A DNA stretch of 64,000 nucleotides from Coralloluteibacterium stylophorae. Its GTDB lineage: Bacteria; Pseudomonadota; Gammaproteobacteria; Xanthomonadales; Xanthomonadaceae. Shown in pieces: positions 223 through 16,812 of the stretch (position 1 is its first letter; each line of letters starts with the position of its first letter). A program made the translations under genes and the position numbers. The notes below the pieces were generated by a model, which saw only the letters and a list, made by a program, of their open reading frames with translations, was not told the DNA's origin and made no database searches. Location of the stretch: assembly GCF_018122625.2 (NCBI RefSeq), contig NZ_JAGQFT020000004.1, positions 1 through 64,000 on the forward strand, read 5' to 3'.

Positions 223-669
223 ATGCCCGAAAAGATTAACCCCGAAACGCGATCTCGAATGATGTCAGGAATTCGAGGCTCCAACACGAAGCCCGAGCTC
301 CTGATCAGATCCGGATTGCATGCTGCAGGCTTCCGCTTCCGACTGCATGCTCGTGCGTTGCCAGGCAGGCCTGACTTGGTGCTGCCACGGTGGCGGGTTG
401 CGGTGTTCGCCCACGGGTGCTTCTGGCACGGACACAAGGGCTGCGGCTATTTCCGCATCCCCAAGACGCGGACCGAGTTCTGGACCGAGAAGATCGCGGC
501 CAACGCGAGACGCGACGAGATGGCCATACAAGCGCTGCACGCGCTCAAATGGCGGATTGCAGTCGTGTGGGAATGCGCGCTGCGCCAAGCCCCAGAACAG
601 ACCCTTGCTGAGCTGGCAGGGTTCATCAGATCAGATCGGAGCTACATCGAGATCCGTGAGCTGAAATAG
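223..669 (+). CDS. vsr: Very short patch repair (Vsr) DNA mismatch endonuclease
   Basis: Vsr nicks DNA 5' of the T in T:G mismatches that arise when 5-methylcytosine deaminates, so it normally partners a Dcm-type methyltransferase. The 148-residue protein has the expected length (E. coli Vsr is 156). The key residues sit at nearly the E. coli positions: Glu25 in NTKPEL, Asp51 in GRPDLV, and His64 and His69 in VFAHGCFWHGH. Zinc ligands are probably Cys66, His71, Cys74 and Cys118, the last two shifted by one residue from the E. coli spacing. Thr63 of the E. coli enzyme is Ala here. The stop abuts the stop of the convergent methyltransferase gene with no gap, which supports a functional pair. 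Confidence 0.95.
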   Translation: MPEKINPETRSRMMSGIRGSNTKPELLIRSGLHAAGFRFRLHARALPGRPDLVLPRWRVAVFAHGCFWHGHKGCGYFRIPKTRTEFWTEKIAANARRDEMAIQALHALKWRIAVVWECALRQAPEQTLAELAGFIRSDRSYIEIRELK

Positions 670-2280
670 TCAGTTCAGAAGCCTGTGCACGATGCCGGCG
701 ATCTGATGCCCGAGCCAAGGCGGCACCGCATTGCCCACCTGCCTGCGTTGAGCGCCTCCAGGCCCTTCGAAGAAGAAGTTGTCGGGGAAGGTCTGTAGCC
801 GCGCGGCCTCACGGACTGTGAGGCTGCGCATCTGCGATGGATCCGGATGGATGAAGTAGTGTCCGTCCTTCGCCAGATGACTGGTGATCGTGGACGAGGG
901 CGCGTTCCACCTCTGCGCCTTGAAGCGGTCAATGAAATGGTTGCTCGCGGACCAGTTCTTGTGGTTCGGGTACAGCCTTTCCGGGAACTCTAGGGCGCCT
1001 CTAGGGGAGCGGTCGTGCGCCGCCGCGAAGGCAGACACGTAAGCATAGCGCAGGAGGTCACTCGCCATATGCGCCCGCGTCTCGTGCTGGAGGATCCCAT
1101 CCATCCGCGGGTCTTCCATTAACTGTCGGAGATGGGCCGGGAGGTTGGTCGCCTTCGCACAGGGGAGCCAGCGAGCGCCCGTTGTCAGCTCGCCGCCGGT
1201 CCAAGCTGCTGCGGCCGATTCGCGCAGACATGCGGCCGTGCCGCTGTCTACCTTTTCGGCGATGCTGACGCATTCATCGAGACTGCGAACGGAAAAGTCT
1301 CTCCAGGAGGAAATGATGTCACCGGTCAGGGAGCTTCTGACCTTCGGCAGAGCAGCAACCACATCGCGCAGCGCAACATCAGGCAGCCCCTCCTCGAGAG
1401 GTACCAGGGATTTGCCGACATCCTCAAGAACGCCAAGCAGGATCACACGGTGACGCTTCTGCGGCATCCCCAGCAGCTCGCTGCGGACGATGAAGTCGCT
1501 TGGCTGCCACGCGTGGTTTGGCCGCTGGACGATAGGCTCGATGCGGTAGCGCGGTCCATCCGCGCCGCCCGGCCGCTCCAGCTGCTCAAAGATTTCCCGG
1601 AAGATGTGTGCCCCTCCCACTCGGGAGGACAGGATGCCTTTCACATTCTCGAGGACGAAGGCTGCTGGCCTGTGCCTTGCGAGGATGTGCAGGTAATGCT
1701 GGTACAGGAAGTGTCGGCCATCGGTTTCAGGCAGGTATCCAGCAATACCGCGGTTGCGGGCCCGCCCCACCAATGAGAACGCCTGACATGGCGGCCCCCC
1801 GACAAGCACCCACGGCTGCCCCTGGCGTGCAGCTTGCCGCGCCACATGCTCGATGCGCTGGTCGAGGTAGCGGTCGTGATCCGGCCGCCCCAGTTCAACC
1901 TGACATACGCGCTGATCAGCCGCCTTCCACAGGTGCTCGGTTTTTCCGCACCAAGGGGCGGCGCGCGCGCCTTGCACGTAGTCGTAGTAGCTGGCCGGCG
2001 CCTCGCCGGAGGGAAAGCTCCGGAAAAACGCGCGCGTACGCAGCGTCTGCACTGCGTGCCGGTCCATCTCGGCCGAGAGCGCAACGTGGAAGCGCCCACC
2101 ACCCCGGTAAGCCTCGAAGCCTTCTCCCAGCCCTCCCGCTCCCGCGAAGATGTCCACAACAGGAATCGGGTGATCGGGCTTCACGGGTTGTACACAGCGT
2201 CGAGGGGCGCCAGGATCGCAGGCGGTGAGCCCACTGTCAAAGGTCGTCGTCTCACGGGCCGCGACAGAACTACGGATCAT
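670..2280 (-). CDS. dcm: DNA (cytosine-5-)-methyltransferase, Dcm type
   Basis: This enzyme methylates cytosine at C5 in a short recognition site. The 536-residue protein has motif I DIFAGAGGLGEGF (residues 43-55), motif IV GGPPCQAFS (161-169, catalytic Cys165) and motif VI ENVKG (211-215). It ends with the C-terminal motifs ESLTVREAARLQTFPDNF-like and QVGNAVPPWLG (motif X). The spacing between motifs I and IV (about 118 residues) is longer than in small type II enzymes. It converges with vsr and is divergent from the GHKL-ATPase operon across a 103-bp gap. In this setting it probably marks self DNA for the neighbouring nuclease system. The exact start is uncertain, because the first 35 residues are not conserved-looking. 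Target specificity cannot be read from the sequence. Confidence 0.93.
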   Translation of the reverse strand: MIRSSVAARETTTFDSGLTACDPGAPRRCVQPVKPDHPIPVVDIFAGAGGLGEGFEAYRGGGRFHVALSAEMDRHAVQTLRTRAFFRSFPSGEAPASYYDYVQGARAAPWCGKTEHLWKAADQRVCQVELGRPDHDRYLDQRIEHVARQAARQGQPWVLVGGPPCQAFSLVGRARNRGIAGYLPETDGRHFLYQHYLHILARHRPAAFVLENVKGILSSRVGGAHIFREIFEQLERPGGADGPRYRIEPIVQRPNHAWQPSDFIVRSELLGMPQKRHRVILLGVLEDVGKSLVPLEEGLPDVALRDVVAALPKVRSSLTGDIISSWRDFSVRSLDECVSIAEKVDSGTAACLRESAAAAWTGGELTTGARWLPCAKATNLPAHLRQLMEDPRMDGILQHETRAHMASDLLRYAYVSAFAAAHDRSPRGALEFPERLYPNHKNWSASNHFIDRFKAQRWNAPSSTITSHLAKDGHYFIHPDPSQMRSLTVREAARLQTFPDNFFFEGPGGAQRRQVGNAVPPWLGHQIAGIVHRLLN

Positions 2281-2383
2281 GGGGCACCGTGGGCATGGTG
2301 GCCGACGAGCAGCGCAGCCACGCTGGATCCACGCTTCGAGATCTCAGGACGTGGACCGCGGATGACTGCGGCAGGGGGAAGGG
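2281..2383. promoter_or_regulatory. Divergent intergenic region between dcm and the GHKL-Z1 operon
   Basis: This 103-bp gap must hold the promoters for the leftward methyltransferase gene and the rightward four-gene operon. A GGGGAAGGG stretch just before the ATG at 2384 can serve as ribosome binding site. I do not see a convincing -35/-10 pair or a clear palindrome, so this call rests on gene orientation. Confidence 0.4.
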
Positions 2384-3886
2384 ATGACGGAAGAAGTACA
2401 GGGGCAGCTGACGTTGCGGCCGAGCGCAGCGCGTCTGCTGGAGTCAATGCGCGATATCGGCTACTCGTTCGAGAGCGCGCTGGCCGACATCGTCGACAAC
2501 AGCATCTCCGCCGGAGCCACACGGATAGAGATCGCAAACGATGTCCACGCCGATGCCGGACCGTACCTGGCCGTGCTCGACAACGGGCGGGGGATGACGA
2601 CCGACGCCCTCACGGCTGCCATGCAGCACGGCAGCAGAAGCCCCCGGGAGACACGTGAGGCGGGAGACCTTGGCCGGTTTGGCCTCGGCATGAAGACGGC
2701 CTCGTTCTCACAGTGCCGACGGGTGACTGTCGTATCCCGTTCCGGAGGTCGCCTCGCAGCACGGTGCTGGGATCTTGACCTGGTCGTCGAGAAGGACGAC
2801 TGGATCCTGCGGGTCCTGGACGATGGGGAAATCGGCAAGCTGCCACTCGTGGACCGGATCGGCGCCTGCGGGACACTCGTGCTGTGGCAGAAACTGGACC
2901 GCCTCGACGCGCTGGGAGATCAGGACGACCAGCTCTACGCCGCGCTGAACCAGATGTTCGGTCTGGCGCGACCCCATCTCGCCCTGACCTTCCACCGCTT
3001 CATCGCACCGGAGCCGGGAGAAGGCAGCCGGGCGGTCACCATGACGATCAATGGCGCGCAGGTGGAAGCCCTTGACCCCTTCGCCCGCCTGATGACTCCG
3101 CGCTCTGACGCGCATGCAGTGGAAGTGGTTCGCATGGACCAAGGCGACATCGTCGTCCAGGCGTTCACCCTCCCGCACCACCAGCGGCTGAAGACCGCGC
3201 AGCTGCAGGCGCTGGAACTTGGATCCAGCCTTGTGGAAACGCAGGGGCTGTATGTCTATCGCGCGAGACGGCTGATCGCCGGCGGCACCTGGCTAGGGCT
3301 CGCACGACGGGCGGAGCTTACCAAGCTGCTGCGCGTGCGCGTGGACGTGCCGACTTCACTCGACGCCGAATGGAGCGTCGACGTCAGGAAGTCACGCGTC
3401 CGACCGCCTGCTGCCGTAAGGGCAAAGCTACGGCCACTGGTCGAGAGGATGACCGAGACCGCGCGCCGGCCCTATACCTACCGCGGCACCAGGCAGGCAG
3501 CGGCGTCGGGGCTTCCCCTCTGGGAGCGTGTCGAGGAGCGTGGCACGCTGCGCTACGAGGTGCGCCGCGATCATCCGATGATCGAGGCACTGCAGAAGGC
3601 CGCAGGAGCGCAGACGAGTGTCGACGCCGTGCTGCTCGCAATCGAGTCCACGCTTCCGCTCGAATCACTCTTCTCGGATGTCGCCGGCACGCCGCAGGCG
3701 CTGCGTCAGAGCGCGATGGCCCATGACGAACTCCAGAAGCTCCTCGCCGCATTCGTCGAAGCGATGGCGCCTGGCAAGGACACACTGCCGTCGTCCATTG
3801 CGGAGGCCATCCTCGCCACTCCCGTCTTCGCGGGCCAACCATCCGCACGCGCCGTACTCGCCGGCCTGCGCCACATCGAAAACTGA
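2384..3886 (+). CDS. GHKL ATPase, MORC/MutL/Hsp90-like (ATP-binding protein of the Z1 defence operon)
   Basis: This is a Bergerat-fold ATPase expected to dimerise on ATP binding and act as a clamp or switch on DNA. The N box reads ADIVDNSISAGA (about residues 34-45). The G1 box is DNGRGM (about 66-71), and the G2 box is GRFGLGMKTASFS (about 96-108), the form typical of the MORC/MutL side of the superfamily. The C-terminal part (about 200-500) has no motif I recognise. It is the first gene of a tight operon: the next gene starts 9 nt after its stop. In known genomes such ATPases pair with Z1-domain proteins, PD-(D/E)XK proteins and AIPR proteins beside Dcm/Vsr, which points to anti-phage or anti-plasmid function. 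The role in this strain is inferred. Confidence 0.88.
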   Translation: MTEEVQGQLTLRPSAARLLESMRDIGYSFESALADIVDNSISAGATRIEIANDVHADAGPYLAVLDNGRGMTTDALTAAMQHGSRSPRETREAGDLGRFGLGMKTASFSQCRRVTVVSRSGGRLAARCWDLDLVVEKDDWILRVLDDGEIGKLPLVDRIGACGTLVLWQKLDRLDALGDQDDQLYAALNQMFGLARPHLALTFHRFIAPEPGEGSRAVTMTINGAQVEALDPFARLMTPRSDAHAVEVVRMDQGDIVVQAFTLPHHQRLKTAQLQALELGSSLVETQGLYVYRARRLIAGGTWLGLARRAELTKLLRVRVDVPTSLDAEWSVDVRKSRVRPPAAVRAKLRPLVERMTETARRPYTYRGTRQAAASGLPLWERVEERGTLRYEVRRDHPMIEALQKAAGAQTSVDAVLLAIESTLPLESLFSDVAGTPQALRQSAMAHDELQKLLAAFVEAMAPGKDTLPSSIAEAILATPVFAGQPSARAVLAGLRHIEN

Positions 3887-3895
3887 GGACTGTTG

Positions 3896-6604
3896 ATGAC
3901 GCATCAGCAACTGCTGGGTCTTGCTCGCACGGCCATGGTGGGACGCGCCGCCCAGACTCCAGCCGAGATCCTCGAGGTGGTGCGAACTCTCGCCGCACTT
4001 CCCTTCATGGATCCTGCGCCAGCGGAAGACGACATCGCCGAAGCAGCTCAGCAACTCGAACGTGAGTTCGAGGTCATGCTGGGGCCCGCGCACACCATCC
4101 AAGCGAGCGGGCATCGACCATGGCTGCGCGGCCGCGCGCACGAAATCAAGTTCCGCTACTGGCAGCGCTACCGCCACTTCCTCATCGCGGGCGGCATGGC
4201 CGAACGTGTCATCAACACCGTCGCCGACGTTACCGACACCATCGTCGATCTTGCCGGCGATCCGACGACAGAGGGCAAGTGGTCGCGCCGCGGGCTGGTC
4301 GTCGGCCACGTCCAGAGCGGCAAGACGGCGAACTACCTCGGCGTCATCAACAAGGCCGCGGATGCCGGATACCGTGTGGTCATCCTGATCGCAGGTGTGC
4401 ACAACAACCTGCGCTCCCAGACGCAGGAGCGTGTCGATCAAGGCTTCGTGGGCCGTGACAGCGACCAGATCCTGAGCCGTCAGGCCAATGTGGATCGTGT
4501 CGGCGTCGGCCTTATCAATCCCGGCTTCACCGCCACCGCCTACACGAGTCGCGCCCACGATTTCAGCCGTGCAAAGGCGGAGAGCCTCGGCAACCCGCTT
4601 CAGAACAGCGCCGAACCGGTCATCCTCGTCATCAAGAAGAACCCATCGATCCTCAACAACCTGATCGACTGGATCCGTGGCACGAGCGCGTCGCAGGGGG
4701 GACTTACGCTTCCGATGCTCGTGATCGACGACGAGGCCGACAATGCGTCCGTCGACACCTCCAAGGACCCCGAAGCACCCCGCACCATCAACCGGCTGAT
4801 CCGTGCGCTTCTGAGTCTCTCGACCCGAAACGCCTACATCGGCTACACCGCCACCCCCTTTGCCAACATCTTCATCGATCCGGAAACGGAGAACACAGAC
4901 CAGGGGAAGGACCTCTTCCCGCGGGACTTCATCGTCGGTCTGGATGCACCTTCGAACTACGTCGGCGCGCACGAGTTCTTTCTCTCAGATGATGCGGAAC
5001 AGCTTACGGTTGACCTGACGGACACCGAGAAGTGGTTGCCCGTCAAGCACAAGATCGACTGGCGCGTGGACGGCCTGCACCCAAGCCTCATTGAAGCCAT
5101 CGACTGCTTTGTCGTCTCCAAGGCGATCCGGATCCTGCGGGGACAGGGCAACCGGCATCACTCCATGCTGGTCAATGTCTCCCGCTTCACGCGCGTGCAG
5201 GGCGATGTTGCGCGAGAGATATCCCAGCACCTCGTCGGGATGCAGGCCGCGATCCAGAACCGACACGCGATGCAGACGGAGGCGGCCCTGCGCGATCCCT
5301 TCCTGCGGTCGCTCTACGACACATGGCAGAAACACTACGCCGGCGGCAAGGAACAATGGGTCGACATCCAGCGCGAGCTGCACCGCGCTGCAGCCAGCAT
5401 GTCGGTCGTTGAGATAAATGCTTCGAGAGGCTCGGGTAAGCTCGACTACCGAGCCCATGCCGACACGGGCCTCAATGTCATCGCAGTGGGCGGCAACTCG
5501 CTCTCACGCGGCTTCACCCTGGAGGGGCTGACGGTCAGCTACTTCCTCCGGAACACGCAGATGTACGACACGCTCCTTCAGATGGGGCGCTGGTTCGGAT
5601 ATCGGGATGGCTTCAAGGATCTCTGCCGTCTCTTTCTGCATCCCGACGCAAGCGACTGGTACGGATTCATTGCCGAAGCAACCGAAGAGCTTCGCGACGA
5701 GATACGAAGGATGGAATTGAGCGGGCTTACTCCGATGGACTTCGGGCTGGCCGTGCGGAGCCATCCAGGGGCACTGATGGTCACCGCCCGCGACAAGATG
5801 CGGAACACGGAGCAGATCGTTCGCGAGGTGGGGCTCGCCGGGAAGCTTGTCGAGACGTCCGTACTCATCGCTTCGGAAGCGGCACGGGTTCGGAACATCG
5901 GCGCTCTTGAGCATCTTGTTGAGCGGATGCTCGGTGAGCACGGGCCACCGGAAGCGGTCGAGCCCACCGCCATCCTTACGAATCACCTGTTCCGGAATGT
6001 AAGCGCCGATAACGTACTCGACCTCATCGCCTCGTTCGGGACACATCCAGGTCAGCTTGAGATGCAGCCGACGCCTCTGAGCAACTACATCCGTGATCGC
6101 GGCCTTGGGCAGTGGGATGTGGTGCTCGTGTCCAGCTCACGCGCCAAGGCCGAGACCGGTGACGTCATGGATGTCCACGGGCTGGCAGTCGGGCTACAGG
6201 AGCGGGTTGTCGAGGTAAGGCCCAGTGGACGCTTCGAGAACGCCCTGCTCGTATCCGGGACGAAGCGCCGCGTTGCATCCCGCGGTGTGGAGAAGATCGG
6301 CCTGTCGGAAGAGGAGATCCACGCAGCACGCGCCGCGCACGGCGAGTCAAAGAAGAACATTCCGGATCATCTGTTCCGGGAGCAGCGGAGCCGCCCTCTT
6401 CTGATGCTCCATCTCCTTAGGACGAAAGATGACAAGGGTGCACCTGGTAACGTCCATGCAGCCTACGGCCTGAGTTTCCCGGGACTTTCAGCCGGAGAGA
6501 AGGAAAAGCTGGTGCTCTATACCGCCAATCTCATCGCGTATCGGGAGCTCTACGGTACGAGGGAAGATGAAGAGGACGATGAGGACGCAGCGGCCAATGC
6601 GTGA
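3896..6604 (+). CDS. Z1-domain superfamily 2 helicase-like ATPase
   Basis: This protein of about 902 residues carries SF2 helicase-type motifs in order: Walker A GHVQSGKT (about 137-144), Walker B VIDDEAD (about 276-282), motif III GYTATPF (about 316-322) and a motif VI-like QMGRWFGYR (about 562-570). This layout defines the Z1 domain, whose known members sit beside GHKL ATPases in restriction-like operons. It presumably provides ATP-driven DNA or protein remodelling for the complex. I chose ATG 3896 over the in-frame TTG at 3893 because a GAGGA box lies six bases upstream of the ATG. The gene is 9 nt from the upstream stop and overlaps the next gene by 8 nt, so translation is probably coupled. 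An acidic tail (EDEEDDEDAAANA) closes the protein. Confidence 0.92.
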   Translation: MTHQQLLGLARTAMVGRAAQTPAEILEVVRTLAALPFMDPAPAEDDIAEAAQQLEREFEVMLGPAHTIQASGHRPWLRGRAHEIKFRYWQRYRHFLIAGGMAERVINTVADVTDTIVDLAGDPTTEGKWSRRGLVVGHVQSGKTANYLGVINKAADAGYRVVILIAGVHNNLRSQTQERVDQGFVGRDSDQILSRQANVDRVGVGLINPGFTATAYTSRAHDFSRAKAESLGNPLQNSAEPVILVIKKNPSILNNLIDWIRGTSASQGGLTLPMLVIDDEADNASVDTSKDPEAPRTINRLIRALLSLSTRNAYIGYTATPFANIFIDPETENTDQGKDLFPRDFIVGLDAPSNYVGAHEFFLSDDAEQLTVDLTDTEKWLPVKHKIDWRVDGLHPSLIEAIDCFVVSKAIRILRGQGNRHHSMLVNVSRFTRVQGDVAREISQHLVGMQAAIQNRHAMQTEAALRDPFLRSLYDTWQKHYAGGKEQWVDIQRELHRAAASMSVVEINASRGSGKLDYRAHADTGLNVIAVGGNSLSRGFTLEGLTVSYFLRNTQMYDTLLQMGRWFGYRDGFKDLCRLFLHPDASDWYGFIAEATEELRDEIRRMELSGLTPMDFGLAVRSHPGALMVTARDKMRNTEQIVREVGLAGKLVETSVLIASEAARVRNIGALEHLVERMLGEHGPPEAVEPTAILTNHLFRNVSADNVLDLIASFGTHPGQLEMQPTPLSNYIRDRGLGQWDVVLVSSSRAKAETGDVMDVHGLAVGLQERVVEVRPSGRFENALLVSGTKRRVASRGVEKIGLSEEEIHAARAAHGESKKNIPDHLFREQRSRPLLMLHLLRTKDDKGAPGNVHAAYGLSFPGLSAGEKEKLVLYTANLIAYRELYGTREDEEDDEDAAANA

Positions 6605-7562
6605 CGATCCCTGGGCGGGACTAGGTCCCACGCCGCAGCAGATCATCGGGAACCGGGTCGGCGGACAGCATGCCCTCTCGATCTACTGGGTCCGCAGCCC
6701 GGATGGCTCGCCCGGACTTCTGCTGCGCGGCATCGACCGAGGTGCGGTTCCGTCTGCGCTTCCGCGCCCTCGAGGGCTCGCGATCGCGGTCAGCGCTCCC
6801 GGCGAGCAGCCGGCGGAAGCAGGGCTCTATCTGCAATCCCGGGCGGAACAGGAAGTCTTCGTAGCCCTTTGCAGGGACGTCATCTCCTACTCGTCGAAAG
6901 ACGCAACACCTCGCGGAGCGACGTCGCTCGCTTTTCGCCGGATCGAGCACTGGCATTCGCTCCTCAACCGGCGCGCGCCCGAGGAGATGGGGCCTCAGGA
7001 AGTCCGCGGCCTGATCGGCGAACTCTGGGTGCTGCTTCGCCTCTCGGACGCGATAGGCATGGCAGCTGCCCTGCAATCGTGGGTTGCACCCGACGACCAT
7101 CCGCAGGATTTCGCCACGGGCGGTGGCGTCGTCGAGGTCAAGACCCGACTGGCCGGCTCAAGACCGCATGCCCGCATCTCCTCGCTTGAGCAGCTGGAAG
7201 AGAGCGCACTGCCGCTTCATCTCCTTGTGGTGGAACTGGCACCAGGCAGCAACCCCTCGGCCTTCTCCCTGAACGAGATCGCGCAGCGCGTTCTCGATGT
7301 CGCGGAGGAATATGGCCCGGACACGCGCGACGCCGCTGCACTGGCGCTCCTCCGTCGAGGACACGTCGAGAAGGACGCCTACGATGTGGATAGATACACC
7401 ACCTCCGGCGCGCGGTTGTTCCGGGTTGACGGCACCTTCCCGCGCCTGACGAGATCCCGCACCGACCGTCGCATCCACGCCGCGCAGTACACGCTGGATC
7501 TCACTGCACTTGATCCGTTCGAGTGCCCGCTCAACACCGTTCTTCCGCAGCAGGGAGCGTAG
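6597..7562 (+). CDS. PD-(D/E)XK motif protein (DUF4420-like putative nuclease)
   Basis: The 321-residue product shows a restriction-nuclease-like core, HPQDFATGGGVVEVKTR (about residues 164-180). The Asp of QDF and the Glu-Val-Lys of VEVKT fit the D...(D/E)XK catalytic pattern. It matches the family annotated as PD-(D/E)XK motif protein, which accompanies Z1 and AIPR genes, and it is the best candidate for the DNA-cutting subunit of this operon. I used ATG 6597, which overlaps the Z1 stop by 8 nt. An upstream in-frame ATG at 6567 would add ten basic residues encoded inside the Z1 gene and is less likely. Metal dependence and target are unknown. Confidence 0.85.
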   Translation: MRDDPWAGLGPTPQQIIGNRVGGQHALSIYWVRSPDGSPGLLLRGIDRGAVPSALPRPRGLAIAVSAPGEQPAEAGLYLQSRAEQEVFVALCRDVISYSSKDATPRGATSLAFRRIEHWHSLLNRRAPEEMGPQEVRGLIGELWVLLRLSDAIGMAAALQSWVAPDDHPQDFATGGGVVEVKTRLAGSRPHARISSLEQLEESALPLHLLVVELAPGSNPSAFSLNEIAQRVLDVAEEYGPDTRDAAALALLRRGHVEKDAYDVDRYTTSGARLFRVDGTFPRLTRSRTDRRIHAAQYTLDLTALDPFECPLNTVLPQQGA

Positions 7563-7570
7563 TCAACATC

Positions 7571-9622
7571 ATGGATGAGGAGATTGCGCAGTACCGGGAC
7601 GCTCTGCTCAGCGAGATACAGGCGGACGCCCAGGCGGGCGGCGACTACCTGAGCACGCGGTTCATCGACCGGGTCTGTCAGGTGCTCGAGGCAGGCGAAG
7701 AGTTCGTCGAGTACCACGTGTGTCGCGGCCATACCACCAGCCGGCGAGGCGGCCACATCCAGATCGACGCCTACAGCTTCTCGCCCAACGACGGCGTCCT
7801 GAACCTGATCGTCTGCGACTTCTCGGGCGAAGCGGCACCGCGGCCTTTGGCCACCGACGAAGTCCGCCGCGTCGCCCAAGGTGGCTTCCGCTTTCTGGAG
7901 GGAAGCGTACATGACGCCATAGCAGACCTCTGGGACGAGAGCCATCCTGTGCATGCGCTTTCCCGCGAAGTCTTCTCGATCGCGTCCTCGGACGAGATGA
8001 CGAAGGCCTGCATATACGTCATTTCCGATCGCCTGGCGGGGGCGACACTTGGCAGGATGCCGGAGTTCTCCCTGGGCACGAAGGACGTGGAGCTTCATCT
8101 GTGGGACGTCGCCCGTCTTGCGCGCGTCGAGGCATCCACCAAGGGCCGCGAGGACATCATCATCAATTTCCTGGGCGAGTACGGATGCGGCATCCCTGCA
8201 CTCCCTGCCGGGCTCGACGGCGCCGCAAGGTACGACTCCTACATGTGCGTCATGCCCGGCAGCATCCTCGCCAGTCTGTATGACCGGTTCGGCGGCCGCA
8301 TTCTTGAGCAGAACGTTCGTGCGTTCCTTGGCGACAACCGGAAGGTCAACAAGGGGATCCGGGACACACTGCGCTCGCAGCCCGAGATGTTCTTCGCCTT
8401 CAACAACGGTCTCACCGTGACGGTTTCCGACCTGAACACGAACATCCACGAGTTCGGGCACACCGAGATCATCAGGGCGAAGGGACTGCAGATCGTCAAT
8501 GGCGGTCAGACCACGGCGTCCCTGTATTGGGCAAAGAAGGCCGGGGTCGACCTCTCCCAGGTGTACGTGCAGATGAAGCTGTCCCGCCTTCCCGAGGAGG
8601 GTTTCGAAGACGCGGTCCACGACATCGCGCGATTCGCGAACGCCCAGAATGCCGTCTCCGCTTCGGATCTCTTCGCAGGGCATCCCTACTTCAAGCGGCT
8701 CGAGGCGATCTCCCGACAGACCATCGCGCCTCCTGCGAGGCCGGGGGAAGTCGGGGGCTTCTGGTACTTCGAGCGCACGACAGGCAGCTACAAGGTAGAG
8801 CTCAAGCGCAAGGTTGGGCTGGCAGCCAAGACATGGCAGCTGGTCAACCCGAAGAAGCAGCTCCTCACCAAGACCGATGTCGCCCGCTACGACACCACCT
8901 TCGAGGGGCTGCCCCACATCGTCAGCTCCGGAGCCCAGAAGAACGTCGCCGCATTCGGAAAGCTGATCACCCAGGCGTGGGGAATCGATCCGGCCATGTT
9001 TGACGTCACCTACTTCCGGAGGTTGGTCGGGCGGGCCATCATCACGCGTGCTGTGGACGGCGCGATACCTGCGCAGAGCTGGTACCCCGGCTCCATCGTG
9101 CGCCCCCTATCCAGCTACACGCTTGCATTGATGAGCTCGCGGCTGCAGTCCGCCGGTCTGCAGCCGGATTACGACGAAATCTGGCGTACGCAGCGAGCAC
9201 CCGCAGCTTTCATGGAAGAGGCCATGCGCGTTGCCCGGCTTGTCCTGCCCCTGCTCATGGACATCCCCGAGGAGCAGGTTCGAAATCGTCTTGTGACCGA
9301 GTGGGTCAAGAAGGAGGCCTGCTGGCTTCGCGTCGAGGGCAGCGACCTTGAACTGACCCAAGACTTCCTGGCTACAACCATGCCTGCCGCCGCGGGCACA
9401 CGCCGTCGCCCTGTAGCGTGGAAGGACCGCGCACAACAGCTATGGCGGGACGGCACTTGGAAGCGACTTCACGACTGGAACCGGCTGGAAACGCGATTGA
9501 CAGCTGGCGAGGCGGAGATTGTCGAGTGGGCCGCAGTCGCGTCCAGTTTCGCTCCGAAGGGCTTCCGGCTTCTCAAGCTGGAAGAGGCGATGAAGCACGC
9601 CACGCAGGAGGGCTTCGTCTGA
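7571..9622 (+). CDS. AIPR family protein (abortive infection phage resistance)
   Basis: This protein of about 683 residues carries the hallmark central block of the AIPR family, FNNGLTVT followed by IVNGGQTTASLYWA (about residues 280-320). A mixed alpha/beta N-terminal region with GGHIQIDAYSF...VCDFSG precedes it and may itself be a degenerate nuclease fold. AIPR proteins are known mainly from phage-resistance loci and from the last position of Z1 operons. ATG 7571 lies eight bases after the previous stop. An in-frame upstream start at 7523 would place 16 codons inside the PD-(D/E)XK gene and is less likely. As the terminal gene of a four-gene run it probably works with the ATPases and nuclease. 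Its biochemical activity is not known to me. Confidence 0.9.
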   Translation: MDEEIAQYRDALLSEIQADAQAGGDYLSTRFIDRVCQVLEAGEEFVEYHVCRGHTTSRRGGHIQIDAYSFSPNDGVLNLIVCDFSGEAAPRPLATDEVRRVAQGGFRFLEGSVHDAIADLWDESHPVHALSREVFSIASSDEMTKACIYVISDRLAGATLGRMPEFSLGTKDVELHLWDVARLARVEASTKGREDIIINFLGEYGCGIPALPAGLDGAARYDSYMCVMPGSILASLYDRFGGRILEQNVRAFLGDNRKVNKGIRDTLRSQPEMFFAFNNGLTVTVSDLNTNIHEFGHTEIIRAKGLQIVNGGQTTASLYWAKKAGVDLSQVYVQMKLSRLPEEGFEDAVHDIARFANAQNAVSASDLFAGHPYFKRLEAISRQTIAPPARPGEVGGFWYFERTTGSYKVELKRKVGLAAKTWQLVNPKKQLLTKTDVARYDTTFEGLPHIVSSGAQKNVAAFGKLITQAWGIDPAMFDVTYFRRLVGRAIITRAVDGAIPAQSWYPGSIVRPLSSYTLALMSSRLQSAGLQPDYDEIWRTQRAPAAFMEEAMRVARLVLPLLMDIPEEQVRNRLVTEWVKKEACWLRVEGSDLELTQDFLATTMPAAAGTRRRPVAWKDRAQQLWRDGTWKRLHDWNRLETRLTAGEAEIVEWAAVASSFAPKGFRLLKLEEAMKHATQEGFV

Positions 9623-9875: not shown

Positions 9876-10622
9876 ATGAGGAAAATCTTGAGCTCACAAT
9901 CCAACGTCGAACCCGGCAAGTGGACGCAACTTCCGCCTGTAGCAGGGATGATTAGAGCTCTCGATGCTCTTAAGATACCTGACGCCATGCACCGCGCCAG
10001 AATCATTTACTCCCGCGTGGGCGACTGGCTGATCCGAGCTGCCGTAGTCGCAGCCGGACTTGTGGCGCTTATGGTGCTGCTGGCGTTGCTTGGCATGATC
10101 GATAAAGAGAGCCTGCGTACGCCCGCGACCATATGCTACATAGGGATCCTTCTGTTATCCCTGTCTTGGCTCGCTGTCGAGGTTGTTCAGCTTCTTCATT
10201 TAGATCGCCGCCATCTGATGAGGCCGATCGAGACCATATCTGAGCGTATCGAAGCACAGGCCAAAGAAGATGACCAGTTCATCGGTAAATTGGCGTCTAT
10301 CCCAGCACAGAAACTCCGGGAGTGCCGCGCGAGGATCGAGTATCAGATCGGCAACATCGCGCAGCGCGCGACCGCAGTTGCGGCCATCGTGTCTGTCCTG
10401 GGCCTTCTTCCCAAGGCCTTCCCGATCTTCTCTGAGCAGACCTCCTTGGGCAGCCTGAGCTTGCAACATATCGCAGCATCGATGGCAGTCGGCGCTGGCG
10501 TGGGCGTTGTAGTTTTCTCACTAGCCAAGCCCAAGCTCGCCCGCTTGGCCTTCGTCCTGAAGCTGGCGGAAGATCGGCTCGGCGAGGCTGCAAGTAGCCC
10601 CCCGCTCGCCCGTATCAATTGA
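9876..10622 (+). CDS. Uncharacterised membrane protein with four predicted helices
   Basis: I do not recognise this 248-residue protein. It has hydrophobic segments at about 54-76, 85-108, 165-186 and 205-226. A charged stretch (about 112-160, rich in Arg, Glu and Gln, with coiled-coil character) lies between the second and third helices. Base composition is visibly lower in GC than the chromosome genes to the right, which fits a transferred island. Its stop overlaps a TTG that could start the downstream nuclease gene, so the two are probably co-transcribed. A membrane partner beside a PD-(D/E)XK protein is reminiscent of two-component defence modules. That reading is inference only. Confidence 0.6.
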   Translation: MRKILSSQSNVEPGKWTQLPPVAGMIRALDALKIPDAMHRARIIYSRVGDWLIRAAVVAAGLVALMVLLALLGMIDKESLRTPATICYIGILLLSLSWLAVEVVQLLHLDRRHLMRPIETISERIEAQAKEDDQFIGKLASIPAQKLRECRARIEYQIGNIAQRATAVAAIVSVLGLLPKAFPIFSEQTSLGSLSLQHIAASMAVGAGVGVVVFSLAKPKLARLAFVLKLAEDRLGEAASSPPLARIN

Positions 10623-10660
10623 AGCAGCCGCTATCGATCAATCAAAGCCTCTTCCGCAAC

Positions 10661-11626
10661 ATGGCCATTACTAGAAAGTTCGAGCGCGACATCGACCTGC
10701 TTCTGGCAGAGGAGTTCCTGGTCAATCCAGACTTCGCCTCGTGGTTCCGCTCCCGCACGCGCTTCGCTGCGGAGTCGACGGCGCAGGTCGTCGATGTGGA
10801 CGTGTCCAAGGCCACGGCTGAGGGCGAGTCCGATCTCATCGTGTACTACCAGCGGCCAGACGGTTCCCGCTTCGCGATCTTCATCGAAGACAAGATCGGT
10901 GCTCTCCTGCAGCCGAGCCAGGCAGATCGATATGTGGCGCGGGCGGCGCGGATGGCGGGCAGCGGCTACATCGACGGCGCCGACTTCGTCCTGTGCGCCC
11001 CGAGCTCGTACATCGAAGTGTGTTCGCCAGAAGCGATCGCGGCGTTCCGGGTACGCGTGACCTACGAGGAGCTGGCGACCGCCATCGAGTCCGACGGCAC
11101 TTCGCCCCGTGCCCGCTACCGCGCAAGCTTCCTGCGCGAGGCACTCGCGAAGCCGAAGAGCCAGTGGCAGAAGCAGGTCGACGAGGAGACCGACGCCTTC
11201 TGGATGTCGGCCTACGACCTCGCGTCACGGCACTACCCCATCCTCGAGATGCGGAAGAAGAGCTTCACCAAGGGCCAGACCTGGGTGTCATTTCGACCGC
11301 ACGATTTCCCGACCATGCCGCGGAGGGTCGAGGTGGCCTACAAGGGCGGCTGGGGCTTCGTCGACCTCGCTTTCAGCAGCACGACCGCACACCGGATGCA
11401 CGAGCTACTCAGCAGTCCGCTACCCGACGACATGACGCTGCACCAGACCGGCAAAAGCGCCTCGATCCGAATCACGGTGCCCGAGTTCGTGATCACCGAG
11501 GGGTGGGAGTGCTGCAAAGACGCAATCACTGCCGGCTTCGAAGCTGCTTCCCGGCTCATCGCCTATTTCCGTGAGCACCGATCGTCTCTGCTCGAAGCGG
11601 CGGATGCTGCGCGCCAAGTGGCTTAG
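10661..11626 (+). CDS. PD-(D/E)XK nuclease superfamily protein
   Basis: The N-terminal third carries a clear restriction-like core: an early Glu in FERDIDLLLAEEF, then GESDLIVYYQ (Asp), then FAIFIEDKIGA (Glu-Asp-Lys), with a following QADRY motif. This is the full E...D...(D/E)XK...Q pattern of the PD-(D/E)XK phosphodiesterases. The C-terminal two thirds (PHDFPTMPRRVEVAYKGGWGFVDLAF) look like a separate recognition domain. I chose ATG 10661. A TTG at 10619, overlapping the previous stop, would extend it by 14 residues and cannot be excluded. The protein is about 321 residues from the ATG. It is probably a nuclease acting with the membrane protein upstream. Its substrate is unknown. Confidence 0.75.
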   Translation: MAITRKFERDIDLLLAEEFLVNPDFASWFRSRTRFAAESTAQVVDVDVSKATAEGESDLIVYYQRPDGSRFAIFIEDKIGALLQPSQADRYVARAARMAGSGYIDGADFVLCAPSSYIEVCSPEAIAAFRVRVTYEELATAIESDGTSPRARYRASFLREALAKPKSQWQKQVDEETDAFWMSAYDLASRHYPILEMRKKSFTKGQTWVSFRPHDFPTMPRRVEVAYKGGWGFVDLAFSSTTAHRMHELLSSPLPDDMTLHQTGKSASIRITVPEFVITEGWECCKDAITAGFEAASRLIAYFREHRSSLLEAADAARQVA

Positions 11627-11673: not shown

Positions 11674-11994
11674 CTAGTCCTTCTTGACCCGCGCCTTCAG
11701 CTGTTTCACTAGCTTCCGCTGCTCCGTGAGGGGGAGCCGCGCGATGGCGACGATCGCTTCCGCAATCTCGTCCGTCTCTGCGTACAGCGCTGCCAGCGGC
11801 ATGCCCAGCGCGTCCGCGAGCTTCTTCGCCGTACGCAGGTCGCACTCGTTGACGCCCCGCTCGTAGCGGTTGATCCGCGTGCGGGCCACGTCAGCGACGA
11901 TCCCGGCCGCGACGCCCAGCGCTTCCTGTGTCAGGTCGGCCGCCTTTCGGGCAGCACGCAGACGGTTCGCGAAGATGAGGCGGGCGTCTTCCAA
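11674..11994 (-). CDS. XRE-family helix-turn-helix regulator (paralogue 1)
   Basis: This is a 106-residue Cro/CI-type repressor. The HTH lies in about residues 10-68, from LRAARKAADLTQEALG to TRINRYERG and LADALG. The start must be TTG (11994), because no ATG or GTG occurs in frame before the upstream stop codon. It is related by eye over its whole HTH (about 45% identical) to the second XRE protein at 20,550-20,894; the two share TRINRYE(R/K)G and PLA..YAE. A 19-bp palindrome lies 59 bp upstream of its start and overlaps a possible rightward promoter for the TonB-receptor gene. Autoregulation and control of the receptor-isopeptidase operon are therefore likely. Confidence 0.88.
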   Translation of the reverse strand: MEDARLIFANRLRAARKAADLTQEALGVAAGIVADVARTRINRYERGVNECDLRTAKKLADALGMPLAALYAETDEIAEAIVAIARLPLTEQRKLVKQLKARVKKD

Positions 11995-12227: not shown

Positions 12228-14684
12228 ATGCTGAACGACAAGGCTGTTGTTATGCCCGGCTGCGCCGGGCGCATTGGTGGGATCCACGAAGAGGGCTTCT
12301 CGAAGACCGACAGGAGCAACGGAAGGGGCGGCGCGAGGCCTCCCGCACGTACTGCCCTGGCCGTGGCGCTCGCGTTGCTGCTCGCTTCGGGCGGTGCTGC
12401 CGCTCAGGCGGCGAGGGACAGCGACGTGGACGACACCCTTCCGCCCGATGGCTCGACCACGCCGGAGTCGAACCCCGTCCACCTCGACACCATCGAAGTC
12501 ACCGGCACCCGCATCCGCGGCGGCACGGTGCCCTCGCCGGTGGTCACCATCGATGCGGCGCGGATCGAGCAGGAGGACTTCGCCGACCTGGGCGAGGTGG
12601 TGCGCAGCCTTCCGCAGAACTTCTCCGGCGGGCAGGGGCCCGGCATCGCGCCGGGCGCGACCGGCGGCGGCCAGGGCAACCAGAACATCACCGGCGGCGC
12701 CGGCCTCAACCTGCGCGGGCTGGGGCAGGACGCGACGCTCACCCTGCTCAACGGGCGCCGCATGTCCTACGGCGGCTTCGTGCAGATGGTGGACATCAGC
12801 GCCATCCCGGTGGAGGCGGTGGAGCGGATCGAGATCGTCGCCGACGGCGCCTCGGCCATCTACGGCTCCGATGCGGTGGGCGGCGTGGGCAACGTGATCC
12901 TGCGGCGCGATTTCGACGGCGTGGCGTTGGGCGCGCGCTACGGCGCGGCCACCGACGGCGGGCTCGCCACCCGCGAGGCCACCGCCACCGGCGGCGCGGC
13001 CTGGCAGAGCGGCGGCCTGATCGCCACCTGGAAGAAGAGCAGCAACGACCCGATCCGCGCCGACCAGCGCGACTACACGGACGGCATGTACGCACCGACC
13101 ACGCTCTACCAGGAGGGCGACCTTCGCAGCGGCGTGCTCAGTGGCTGGCAGGAGCTGGGCGACGTGGGCGAGCTGCGGCTCGACGCACTGGGATCGGAGC
13201 GCTCGATCCTCACCGAGATGGCCTACGCCACCAACTACGAGCGCAGCACGCCGGAGACGAGCGCCTCGCTGCTGTCGCCCAGCGTCGAGCTCTACCTGCC
13301 GGGCGGCTGGACGCTGGAGCTGGGCAGCACCTTTGGCCGCGAGCGCACTGACGGTGCCAATGCCGTGGTGACGCCCGCGGCCGGCACCACGACGGTGACG
13401 CGCACCGAGTACCGCAACACCAGCCGCAGCCACGAGCTGGGCGTGGAAGGGCCCGTGGCCAGGGCGCCGGGCGGCGACGCGCGGCTGGCCGCCGGGGTGG
13501 GCTATCGCTACAACGACTTCGAGACCCGCTACCCCGACAGCGGCTACACCCAGGCCAGCGGCGACGTGCGCAGCCGCTTCGCCTATGCCGAGGTCGAGGT
13601 GCCCCTGGTCGCGCCGGACCAGGGCGTCGCCGGCGCGTACCGGCTGGCGCTCACCGGCGCCGTCCGCAGCGAGGACTACGACCGCTTCGGCGACGTCACC
13701 ACGCCCAAGCTCGGCGTGGTCTGGGGGCCCAGCCGCGACGTCACGGTCAAGGCCTCGTGGGGCCGCTCGTTCAAGGTGCCCACGCTCTCCCAGCAGTACC
13801 TGCAGCGCGACGCGATCCTGTTCCCCGCGATCGCGCTGGGCGGCACGGCCTATCCGCCCGGGGCGACGGCGCTCTACCTCGTCGGCGGCAACCCGGACCT
13901 CGACCCGGAGCGGGCGCGCACCTGGAGCGCCTCGCTGGCCTTCCATCCGGCCGCCCTGCCCGGCTTCGAGTCGGAGGTCACCTGGTTCGATGTCGACTAC
14001 AGCGACCGGGTGGTGCAGCCGCTCGTCCCCGCGCAGGCGCTGTCGAACCCGGCCTTCGCGGAGTTCCTCGAGCCCGGGCCCAGCGCGGAGGAGCTGGATG
14101 CCCTGCTGCGGACCTTCCGCTTCACCAACGCGACGGGCCAGCCGCTGGATGCGGCGACGATCGCAGTGGTGGTGCCCAACCTCTACGTCAACAGCGCGCG
14201 GCAGCGCGTGCGCGGCGCGGACGTCTCCGGCCGCTACCGGTTCGACCTGGCCGAGGGCGCGCTGACGCTGCGCGGTGCGCTCACCTGGCTCGACAGCACG
14301 CGCCAGGTCTCGTCGGGCCAGCCGGAGCTCGACATGGCGGGCGAGCTGTTCTATCCGGCCGACCTCAACGCGCGCGTCGGCGCGGTGTGGAACCGCAGCG
14401 GCTTCACCGGCTCGCTGTTCGGCAACTACCGCAGCGGCGTGCGCAATCCGGTGGACGGCGAGGACGGGGCCTCGTTCACCACCTTCGATGCCACGCTCCG
14501 CTACGACACCGGCATGCACGCCGGTGCGCTCTCCGACGTGGCGCTGGAGCTCACCGTCCAGAACCTCCTCGACCGCGCGCCGCCGCTGTATGCGGTGGCC
14601 TCGCCGACCTTCGCGCCCTACGACTCCACGAACTACTCGGCCATCGGCCGCTTCGCTGCCGTCTCCGTCTCCAAGCGCTGGTGA
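12228..14684 (+). CDS. TonB-dependent outer-membrane receptor of the lasso-peptide locus
   Basis: This is an 818-residue beta-barrel receptor expected to import a ligand across the outer membrane using TonB energy. A signal peptide (TALAVALALLLASGGAAAQA) is followed by the TonB-box-like HLDTIEVTGTRI. The plug domain then shows LNLRGLGQDATLTLLNGRR and VERIEIVADGASAIYGSDAVGGVGNVILRR-type blocks. The barrel ends in a terminal aromatic-basic residue pair (SVSKRW), with the closing strand RFAAVSVSKRW. ATG 12228 is chosen for the GGAGG box six bases upstream. The isopeptidase gene follows after 46 bp, a pairing known from proteobacterial lasso loci. Its likely substrate is the lasso peptide or a lasso-ligand complex, inferred from context. 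Confidence 0.92.
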   Translation: MLNDKAVVMPGCAGRIGGIHEEGFSKTDRSNGRGGARPPARTALAVALALLLASGGAAAQAARDSDVDDTLPPDGSTTPESNPVHLDTIEVTGTRIRGGTVPSPVVTIDAARIEQEDFADLGEVVRSLPQNFSGGQGPGIAPGATGGGQGNQNITGGAGLNLRGLGQDATLTLLNGRRMSYGGFVQMVDISAIPVEAVERIEIVADGASAIYGSDAVGGVGNVILRRDFDGVALGARYGAATDGGLATREATATGGAAWQSGGLIATWKKSSNDPIRADQRDYTDGMYAPTTLYQEGDLRSGVLSGWQELGDVGELRLDALGSERSILTEMAYATNYERSTPETSASLLSPSVELYLPGGWTLELGSTFGRERTDGANAVVTPAAGTTTVTRTEYRNTSRSHELGVEGPVARAPGGDARLAAGVGYRYNDFETRYPDSGYTQASGDVRSRFAYAEVEVPLVAPDQGVAGAYRLALTGAVRSEDYDRFGDVTTPKLGVVWGPSRDVTVKASWGRSFKVPTLSQQYLQRDAILFPAIALGGTAYPPGATALYLVGGNPDLDPERARTWSASLAFHPAALPGFESEVTWFDVDYSDRVVQPLVPAQALSNPAFAEFLEPGPSAEELDALLRTFRFTNATGQPLDAATIAVVVPNLYVNSARQRVRGADVSGRYRFDLAEGALTLRGALTWLDSTRQVSSGQPELDMAGELFYPADLNARVGAVWNRSGFTGSLFGNYRSGVRNPVDGEDGASFTTFDATLRYDTGMHAGALSDVALELTVQNLLDRAPPLYAVASPTFAPYDSTNYSAIGRFAAVSVSKRW

Positions 14685-14730
14685 CGCCTGCGCGCAGTCG
14701 TCGGGGTTCGAATCGGACAGGAGCGGAAGC

Positions 14731-16812
14731 ATGGTCGAGGTCGGTGGTCGCAAGGCGTGGAAGTGGGCCCTGGTGCTGGGCGCGTGGCCCTGGCTGCTCG
14801 TGCCGCCCGGGCAGGCGGGCGCGGTGTCGTCCCGGCAGCTGGTGGAGATCGCCGACTTCGGCAGCCCGGTGGTGTCTCCGGACGGGAGACTGGTGGCGTA
14901 TCGCGTGTCCCAGGCGTCGATCGAGCGCAATACGGACGACACGGTCTGGTACGTGCAGCGGATGGACGGGACGGCGCCGCCGCGCCGGGTGGCCGACGGC
15001 GGCGTGCCGCTGCGCGATTCGGCCGGCATCCCGGTGCCGGCGGAGATGGCGTGGTCACCTGACAGCCGCTGGGTCTTCTATCGGGCGCGGCTCGACGGCC
15101 GGGTCGCGGTGTGGCGCGTCTCCGCCGACGGCGCCGTGGCAGAGCCGGTCACCGACGATGCGGCGGACGTGGAGGAGTTCGCGCTGGATGCGGCCGGCAC
15201 GCGGCTCACCTACCGCGTCGGCCTGCCGCGCGAGGCGGTGCGCGACGCGGAAGAGGCGGAGTACGACCGCGGCATCCGCATCGACCGGGCCGCGCCGCTG
15301 GGCCAGGGCCTGTTCCGCTCCGGCCTCACCGAGGGGCGCCTGGCCACGCAACGCCTGGGCCAGGTCTTCAACCGGGTGCCGCTGACCGCGGCGACGGCGA
15401 CGCAGTGGAAGGCCGTCGGGCTGGATGCGGGCACGCGCGACGCCGTGCCCGCCGATGCGCCGGCGGCGCCATCGCTGCCGGCCGTGCTGCAGGACCTTCC
15501 CGATCTCTGGCAAACCGCGGACGAGCCGGGCGGCGACCGCGTTGCCTTCCTCACCCGCAGCGGCGAACGCACGGCGCAGCGGCGGGTCGAGCTGGGCGTC
15601 GCGCGCGGGCCGGGCGCGCGCGACGTGGTGATGTGCCGGGCGGCGGCCTGCACGGGCGCGGAGATCAGCGGCATCCAGTGGCGGCCCGGCAGCGAGGAGG
15701 TGCTGTTCACCGTCACGCGGTACACGGCGGGCTTTGCGCAGTCGATCCATCGCTGGGACGTGGCGAGCGGCGCCGTGCATCCGGTGGCAGCCAGCAACGG
15801 CATGTTCGCCGGCGAGGGCCGCTGGGGCCCGGGAACCTGCGGCGTGTCGGCGGCGGCGCTCGCCTGCGTCACCGCCGAGGCGAACCGCCCGCCGCGGCTG
15901 GAGCGGATCGACCTCGCCACGGGCGCGCGGCAGGTGCTGTTCGATCCGAACGAGGTGCTGGCGCGCGACCTTGGCGCGCTCGACGCGGAACTGCTCCGGT
16001 GGTCGGATGCGGACGGCCAGGTCTTCTCCGGCCAGCTTTATCCCGCGCGCCGCATCGACGGCAGGCCGCCGCCGCTGTTCGTCACCTACTACCGGTGCAT
16101 GGGTTTCGTGCGCGGCGGCGCCGGCGACGAATGGCCGCTCGCCGTGCTGGCGGAGCACGGCATTGCGACGCTGTGCATCAACGCGCCGTCCTTCTCGGCC
16201 GACGCCGCGGAGCGCTACGGCGTGGGCCTGTCGGCGGTCGAGAGCGCGGTCGACCTGCTGGCCGCCGAAGACAGGATCGACCGCACCCGCGTCGGCATGG
16301 GCGGGCTCAGCTTCGGCAGCGAGGTGACCATGTGGACGCTGATCCACTCCGACCTGCTCGCCGCGGCCTCGCTGGCATCGCCGACGACCTCGCCGATGTA
16401 CTACCTGCTGGGCAGCAACATCGGCGAGGAGTTCCTCTCGATCCTGCGGAGCAACTGGCAGCTCGGCGCGCCGGAGGAGACGCCCGCCGACTGGCAGCGG
16501 ATCTCGCCGACGGCGAACCTCGACCGCATCCGCGCGCCGGTCCTGATGCAGCTGGCCGAGCAGGAGACCATGCACGGGCTGGACTACATGATCCCGCTGA
16601 TGCGCGACGGACGCGCGGACATCTACGTGTTCCCGCATGCGCCGCACAACAAGTTCCAGCCCCGGCACAAGCTGGCGGTGTACGAGAGGAACCTGGACTG
16701 GTTCCGCTTCTGGCTGCTGGGCGAGGAGGACGCGGCACCGGCCAAGGCAGCGCAGTACGCGCAGTGGCGGGCGATGCGCGAGCGCCTGGGCGAGGACCTC
16801 GCCGCGCGCTAG
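14731..16812 (+). CDS. Lasso peptide isopeptidase (S9 prolyl-oligopeptidase-like, AtxE2 family)
   Basis: This 693-residue secreted alpha/beta-hydrolase with an N-terminal propeller should linearise the lasso peptide by cutting its isopeptide bond. A signal peptide (WALVLGAWPWLLVPPGQAGA) precedes ADFGSPVVSPDGRLVAYRVS propeller repeats. The nucleophile elbow GLSFGS places Ser at residue 527 and the acidic residue in QLAEQE at Glu610. The His is 636 or 639 in FPHAPHNKF. Ser527 and Glu610 coincide with the positions I recall for AtxE2, which uses the unusual Glu. The ATG at 14731 has AGGAG upstream. The stop overlaps the convergent cyclase gene by 4 nt. Linkage to the receptor suggests uptake followed by hydrolysis of the peptide. 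Confidence 0.92.
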   Translation: MVEVGGRKAWKWALVLGAWPWLLVPPGQAGAVSSRQLVEIADFGSPVVSPDGRLVAYRVSQASIERNTDDTVWYVQRMDGTAPPRRVADGGVPLRDSAGIPVPAEMAWSPDSRWVFYRARLDGRVAVWRVSADGAVAEPVTDDAADVEEFALDAAGTRLTYRVGLPREAVRDAEEAEYDRGIRIDRAAPLGQGLFRSGLTEGRLATQRLGQVFNRVPLTAATATQWKAVGLDAGTRDAVPADAPAAPSLPAVLQDLPDLWQTADEPGGDRVAFLTRSGERTAQRRVELGVARGPGARDVVMCRAAACTGAEISGIQWRPGSEEVLFTVTRYTAGFAQSIHRWDVASGAVHPVAASNGMFAGEGRWGPGTCGVSAAALACVTAEANRPPRLERIDLATGARQVLFDPNEVLARDLGALDAELLRWSDADGQVFSGQLYPARRIDGRPPPLFVTYYRCMGFVRGGAGDEWPLAVLAEHGIATLCINAPSFSADAAERYGVGLSAVESAVDLLAAEDRIDRTRVGMGGLSFGSEVTMWTLIHSDLLAAASLASPTTSPMYYLLGSNIGEEFLSILRSNWQLGAPEETPADWQRISPTANLDRIRAPVLMQLAEQETMHGLDYMIPLMRDGRADIYVFPHAPHNKFQPRHKLAVYERNLDWFRFWLLGEEDAAPAKAAQYAQWRAMRERLGEDLAAR

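Follow-up and report, generated by a model that had tools for sequence, protein, structure and literature searches.

Introduction

In 2020, Gao and coworkers reportedly described MZA, an anti-phage system encoded by mzaABCDE. Restriction-modification neighbourhoods combining MORC, SFII, NRE, Dcm, Vsr and AIPR genes had been predicted before as a class with several helicase types (Iyer 2008, PMC2292703), and passages of Miller 2022 (PMC9523054) present a putative 'type II' defence system with a core of Z1, DUF4420 (printed there as DUF4220) and C5-methylase, to which AIPR and MORC are associated. In CglI and NgoAVII, the Z1 protein has been established as a DNA-dependent ATPase which works with a nuclease and is needed for cleavage, and methylation was found to block this cleavage (PMC4267653). 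Here, we report the computational analysis of a six-gene locus of Coralloluteibacterium stylophorae, located in a window of 64,000 nucleotides (nt) that begins at base 1 of contig NZ_JAGQFT020000004.1. The locus encodes a C5-cytosine DNA methyltransferase (C5-methylase), the mismatch endonuclease Vsr and four core proteins, namely a MORC-family GHKL-S5 ATPase, a superfamily 2 (SF2) helicase-like ATPase with a Z1 domain, a DUF4420 protein with a PD-(D/E)XK nuclease fold and an AIPR protein. It belongs to a divergent branch of an already described kind of defence locus, and it is probably an ATP-dependent restriction-modification anti-phage system of the MZA or MORC-Z1 kind.

Relatives of the locus and linkage of the methylase

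A scan of GTDB genomes yielded the 80 nearest loci, which together with the window gave 81 loci for comparison. The relatives span Proteobacteria, Chloroflexi, Planctomycetota, Verrucomicrobia, Firmicutes, Elusimicrobia, Nitrospira and others; the nearest by MzaC identity were found in Luteibacter (77%) and Stenotrophomonas (72%), followed by the remaining relatives at about 37-45%. Of the 81 loci, 73 retain the complete core order B-C-D-E; in most of the others, a contig end truncates the locus or a frameshift splits it. Linkage was counted in the 51 loci in which the core is flanked by 3.5 kb or more on each side, and there a C5-methylase is present in every case (51/51) and Vsr in 44. A methylase is missing from five loci, in each of which the contig breaks off close to the core. 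Placement of the methylase varies: it lies upstream on the same strand in 34 loci, downstream on the opposite strand in 22, downstream on the same strand in 15 and upstream on the opposite strand in 5. Linkage to methylase and Vsr also extends to more distant MZA-like loci (L115, L116, L118, L123 and L134). As expected of a restriction-modification system, the methylase is therefore linked to nuclease genes across the relatives, with MZA of Escherichia coli as the exception. Given the repeated core order and the methylase linkage, the six-gene arrangement is far from chance.

Gene content and organization of the locus

The positions of the genes, domains and motifs are listed in Table 1. The vsr and methylase genes are convergent and meet tail to tail, ending at 669 and 670, respectively. 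The methylase gene is divergent from the four-gene run and therefore stands outside that operon; 103 nt separate the two starts, and in a consensus scan of this intergenic region a sigma-70-like site was not found. The original prediction of a methylation-linked, defence-type operon with a MORC-like ATPase, a Z1 ATPase and a PD-(D/E)XK protein is borne out by the near-universal methylase link in the relatives. The six genes that it counted, Vsr among them, are all present and intact at the contig start, but Vsr lies outside the interval 670-9622 assigned to them. Likewise, the tight order of the four-gene run holds, while its junctions had to be corrected to a 6-nt gap followed by overlaps of 38 nt and 40 nt (with the listed start codons).

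Table 1. Features of the six-gene locus (window positions)
Feature	Position	Strand	Remarks
Vsr mismatch endonuclease	223-669	+	Pfam Vsr E 9e-27; TIGR00632 above cut-off
C5-cytosine DNA methyltransferase, class T0	670-2280	-	Pfam E 2e-39
Intergenic region separating the divergent methylase and mzaB-like genes	2281-2383	none	
MORC-family GHKL-S5 ATPase (MzaB homologue)	2384-3886	+	HATPase_c_3 E 8e-30
GLYVYRARRLI, residues 288-298, in the S5 domain	3245-3277	+	fits the MORC-defining motif GhXhhpXXRhl
SF2 helicase-like ATPase with Z1 domain (MzaC homologue)	3893-6604	+	Z1 E 3e-78
Walker A motif GHVQSGKT of the Z1 protein	4304-4327	+	VQSGKT invariant in seven aligned relatives
Z1 domain with YDTLLQMGRWFGYR (DThhQXuRhFG motif of Iyer)	5084-5773	+	
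DUF4420 PD-(D/E)XK nuclease (MzaD homologue)	6567-7562	+	E 3e-51
Predicted active-site residues E152, D181, E190 and K192 (E-D-ExK) of DUF4420	7020-7142	+	identical in 77/77 sequences
AIPR protein (MzaE homologue)	7523-9622	+	AIPR E 1e-72
Predicted restriction-endonuclease fold at the N-terminus of the AIPR protein, without the catalytic lysine	7550-8146	+	
Middle AIPR domain containing NGGQTT	8219-8650	+	weakly similar to ParB-N / SspE

PADLOC and NCBIfam name the products of the four-gene run MzaB, MzaC, MzaD and MzaE, with E-values of 4e-90, 9e-173, 2e-35 and 4e-101 for the Mza models. The corresponding NCBIfam scores (302, 576, 123 and 340 bits) are all far below the equivalog cut-offs of 850, 1500, 420 and 1050. 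Homologues of MzaB, MzaC, MzaD and MzaE are adjacent and in order. Directly upstream, the sigma-70 factor MzaA is absent and the divergent C5-methylase is found instead; none of the nine proteins encoded at 223-11994 matches a sigma factor.

The Vsr protein shares 46% identity with its E. coli counterpart across 121 amino acids and retains D51, CFWH and FW..K...N..RD, and the motifs PCQ, ENV and QVGNAVPP of the methylase are intact. Both are the sole proteins of their kind in the genome. The target site of the methylase could not be read off, because its target-recognition region, of the T0 type, is unlike that of Dcm. The top PADLOC match of the methylase, the DrmMII model, was of no help in this respect, since the site of the Serratia DISARM C5-methylase (PMC9142583) differs from the CCWGG of Bacillus DISARM (PMC11676413).

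Nuclease, ATPases and AIPR protein

The DUF4420 protein was modelled with a predicted local distance difference test (pLDDT) score of 92 as an N-terminal domain (residues 1-135) followed by a restriction-endonuclease fold (residues 136-331). Comparison by VIA-align matched the model to NhoI (Z 8.1, root-mean-square deviation (rmsd) 4.5, 119 residues), DpnI (7.2), PvuII (6.1) and HincII (5.4). Although Z values of this size are moderate, the top eleven matches are without exception restriction enzymes or SPARDA complexes, in agreement with the Pfam assignment. Foldseek by itself gave nothing significant for DUF4420 or AIPR, so the restriction-enzyme matches come from VIA-align. Judged by its invariant E-D-ExK residues, DUF4420 is predicted to be the only protein of the locus with a complete nuclease active site.

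In the MORC-family protein, the GHKL ATPase motifs and the GLYVYRARRLI motif of the S5 domain are conserved among 77 sequences, and the latter corresponds to the motif by which prokaryotic MORC proteins were defined (Iyer 2008, PMC2292703). Its best PDB matches are MORC2 entries. In the Z1 protein, DDE.D and YTATPF are invariant in the same seven aligned relatives as the Walker A motif; a sequence search of solved structures returned none that matches it. The Z1 family is present in Corynebacterium glutamicum.

The model of the AIPR protein reached a pLDDT of 87 and a predicted template modelling score of 0.52. Its N-terminal domain was matched by VIA-align to FokI (Z 9.9, rmsd 4.8, 160 residues), AF1548 (9.6), AspBHI (9.3) and MspJI (8.8). 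D82 is kept in 70 and D99 in 64 of 78 sequences, and position 101, which from the spacing in FokI we take to be the site of the catalytic lysine, is occupied in relatives mostly by S, R, H, Q, A, D, N or V. The modelled domain is accordingly read as a degenerate nuclease fold without catalytic lysine, which is a new observation. The middle domain gave Z values of 6.2 for ParB-N and 4.4 for SspE, both below the level that is trustworthy alone, and carries an NGGQT motif that is near-invariant among relatives. The protein also matches AbiU (E 4e-20). Among the core proteins, AIPR is the one whose role can be assigned with least confidence.

Exchange of methylase classes

Clustering of the methylases resulted in a main class T0 (n = 57), a class T1 (n = 11) mostly from Firmicutes, and several small classes; a Dcm-like class (loci L024, L036, L061 and L117) groups with E. 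coli Dcm. For the 82 rows of the MzaC tree, a minimum of 13 changes of methylase class was counted, compared to a mean of 24.2 after shuffling, so that the class is inherited in part and frequently replaced; inclusion of every row and label raised the count to 17. Locus L061 was excluded from the 13-change tree, the divergence analysis and the matched pairs because its contig stops a short way upstream of mzaB, and another methylase could lie there.

A core domain that was replaced with each new target would drop sharply in similarity, and none drops. In matched close pairs of different versus same methylase class, the values were 0.51 versus 0.49 for the DUF4420 N-terminal domain, 0.48 versus 0.50 for the nuclease domain, 0.56 versus 0.59 for the AIPR N-terminal domain and 0.71 versus 0.71 for the AIPR middle domain. 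With a matched-pair gap of at most about 3 points, no co-variation of note between core domains and methylase class was detected, and the excess divergence over whole core domains amounts to no more than 0.026 in shuffles that ignore kinship. The Vsr proteins beside Dcm-like methylases fall among those of the T0 loci in a poorly supported tree. This exchange of methylases without core change is new here and is the part most worth testing. It may tentatively be read to mean that the cutting core is not tuned to a single methylase target, with T0, Dcm/EcoRII-like, T1 and tandem methylases, whose target-recognition regions are unlike one another, being repeatedly swapped in beside unchanged cores. 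Either all of them would mark one shared site, or the core would read 5-methylcytosine or its absence without a fixed sequence; in E. coli, MZA might rely on the mark set by the housekeeping Dcm.

In loci L078, L088 and L095, two tandem C5-methylases of the classes T3 and T5 are found where other loci have a single one, which may point to an asymmetric target or to split specificity.

MZA loci of E. coli and related bacteria

MZA was found in 55 of 5426 E. coli genomes. The K-12 chromosome carries dcm-vsr, and E. coli Dcm may serve E. coli MZA. Among the relatives of E. coli MZA, a gammaproteobacterial locus (L115) combines an MzaA-like sigma factor with a T0 methylase and Vsr, and an Azospirillum locus (L134) has a T0 methylase and Vsr. 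On plasmids, an MZA locus of Neorhizobium (L133) has a Dcm-like methylase with 52% identity to E. coli Dcm, Vsr and an adjoining EcoRII-like enzyme (1949-3166), and one of Thalassospira (L132) has another C5-methylase and adjoins an AspBHI-like modification-dependent enzyme (14646-15815).

Two E. coli strains, which account for two of the three MZA loci inspected, have an IS421 element inserted in mzaB (L127, 11662-12774; L128, 11664-12776), with mzaA, mzaC, mzaD and mzaE open. Some E. coli MZA loci are therefore probably inactive or partial.

Genomic setting

The G+C content is 62-66% over the first 12 kb of the window versus about 70-74% over the following 28 kb. The first 12 kb are therefore regarded as an acquired island, with a sharp right edge at about 12,000 and a left edge off the contig. 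Downstream of the AIPR gene and within this island, two genes overlapping by 4 nt (9876-11626, plus strand) encode a predicted membrane protein of 248 amino acids and a protein of 335 amino acids with a weak match to PDDEXK_4 (E 0.025). They were dropped as candidate parts of the system, being present in 0 of the 80 relatives, and possibly form a two-gene defence module of their own. A small helix-turn-helix protein encoded on the minus strand (11674-11994), where the island ends on its right side, matches models of restriction-modification control proteins (PADLOC PDLC03667, E 1e-16).

Proposed mechanism and alternative explanations

The genes, folds, active sites and near-universal methylase linkage described above were obtained from sequence, comparison or model. 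In the proposed mechanism, the C5-methylase would mark host DNA, and Vsr would repair the T:G mismatches that arise from deamination of 5-methylcytosine, a cost of the methylase mark. The four core proteins would bind unmarked foreign DNA as a complex. Within it, the SF2-Z1 ATPase is taken as the DNA motor because of the analogy with the Z1 ATPase of CglI/NgoAVII, and the MORC ATPase would act as an ATP-driven clamp that closes to hold DNA and partners; an ATP-gated clamp or looping engine has been proposed for MORC before (Iyer 2008, PMC2292703). The AIPR protein would contribute DNA binding and assembly via its degenerate nuclease domain and its NGGQ-containing domain, and the DUF4420 protein would make the cut. 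That methylation protects, that labour is divided in this manner and that the steps follow this order is what we infer.

A restriction-modification system is supported by the methylase and Vsr linkage in the relatives, by the location here of the genome's sole C5-methylase and Vsr, by the ATP-dependent, methylation-blocked cutting driven by Z1 ATPases in CglI/NgoAVII, by the invariant E-D-ExK residues and restriction-enzyme fold of DUF4420, by the MORC motif, by the anti-phage assignment of the homologous MzaB-E and by the acquired island of low G+C content. Three points weigh against it. Phenotypes or biochemistry were not found for the window locus or any close relative. In three E. coli MZA loci comprising mzaA and mzaB-E, an annotated C5-methylase or Vsr was not found within about 5-10 kb on each side, an absence newly noted here; a linked methylase is therefore not required in all MZA. 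Moreover, the at least 13 class changes without matching core change are unlike a classical restriction-modification pair with co-evolving specificity. The original prediction had spoken of 'methylation-guided' cutting, and this part is less likely: the methylase is more probably a mark of self-protection, and its class varies in the way just described. It had also held that comparative genomics points to defence while no mechanism is known; the neighbourhood is indeed described in Iyer 2008 and in passages of Miller 2022, but biochemistry of a Z1 ATPase exists in CglI/NgoAVII (PMC4267653).

Alternatively, the core could kill or arrest the infected cell upon sensing a phage, the methylase-Vsr pair only keeping it quiet on host DNA. 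Such abortive infection would be in line with the name of the AIPR proteins, which refers to abortive-infection proteins, with the AbiU match and with the many invariant polar residues of the AIPR middle domain, which may be an enzyme of its own. However, the AIPR nuclease fold has no catalytic lysine and the only complete nuclease predicted, DUF4420, is restriction-enzyme-like, so that this explanation is considered unlikely. The invariance of the complete E-D-ExK nuclease across relatives also speaks against a system like DISARM or BREX, in which the ATPases would exclude unmarked DNA or stall its replication with little cutting. A motor ATPase combined with a C5-methylase does resemble the DISARM architecture, the methylase has DrmMII as its top match, and in DISARM methylation lowers the ATPase activity of DrmAB (PMC9142583); even so, we regard blocking as improbable.

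Finally, the Dcm-Vsr pair might merely adjoin an MZA core in a defence island as an independent neighbour. The varying position and strand of methylase and Vsr, the exchanged methylase classes and the lack of both in E. coli MZA would be explained in this way, but linkage in 51 of 51 loci across many phyla is not expected of random island neighbours and renders a chance association very improbable.

Returning to the restriction-modification system, direct tests are suggested by the near-obligate methylase of this branch, by its exchangeable class and by the full active site that only one of the two proteins with a nuclease fold retains. MZA-type systems occur widely, protection against phage has been reported for one of them, and it can now be asked whether methylation protects, which site the core reads and whether Dcm serves E. 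coli MZA. The answers would show what a bacterial MORC protein does, which is also relevant to the eukaryotic MORC proteins.

Comparison with known systems

DISARM has a C5-methylase and an SF2 motor in common with the window locus, but DrmA, DrmB and DrmC have no match among the locus proteins in PADLOC. CglI and NgoAVII share C5-methylase, SF2-Z1 ATPase and nuclease, and their cleavage is ATP-dependent and blocked by methylation (PMC4267653, PMC5737866). In contrast, the nuclease of CglI is a PLD-B3 protein that recognises GCCGC, whereas that of the window is a PD-(D/E)XK protein of the DUF4420 family, and MORC, AIPR and DUF4420 are absent from CglI/NgoAVII.

Closer likeness is found to MZA, which likewise has a MORC/MutL-like ATPase, Z1, PD-(D/E)XK and AIPR proteins in the same order as the four-gene core. 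The window locus differs by its lack of mzaA and by the linked C5-methylase and Vsr, which have no counterpart beside E. coli MZA. No later work on the mechanism of MZA was found in the open-access literature. With the neighbourhoods of Iyer 2008, the MORC motif, the DThhQXuRhFG helicase motif, the E-D-ExK endonuclease, Dcm and Vsr all match, and the locus fits the third of the operon types distinguished there. The gene set of the type II system, Z1, DUF4420 and C5-methylase with AIPR and MORC, is the same as that of the window, without a difference in gene content at the level of those passages of Miller 2022 which present it. The kind of locus found here was thus already described in 2008, 2020 and 2022, and it is a real and widely conserved anti-virus gene set.

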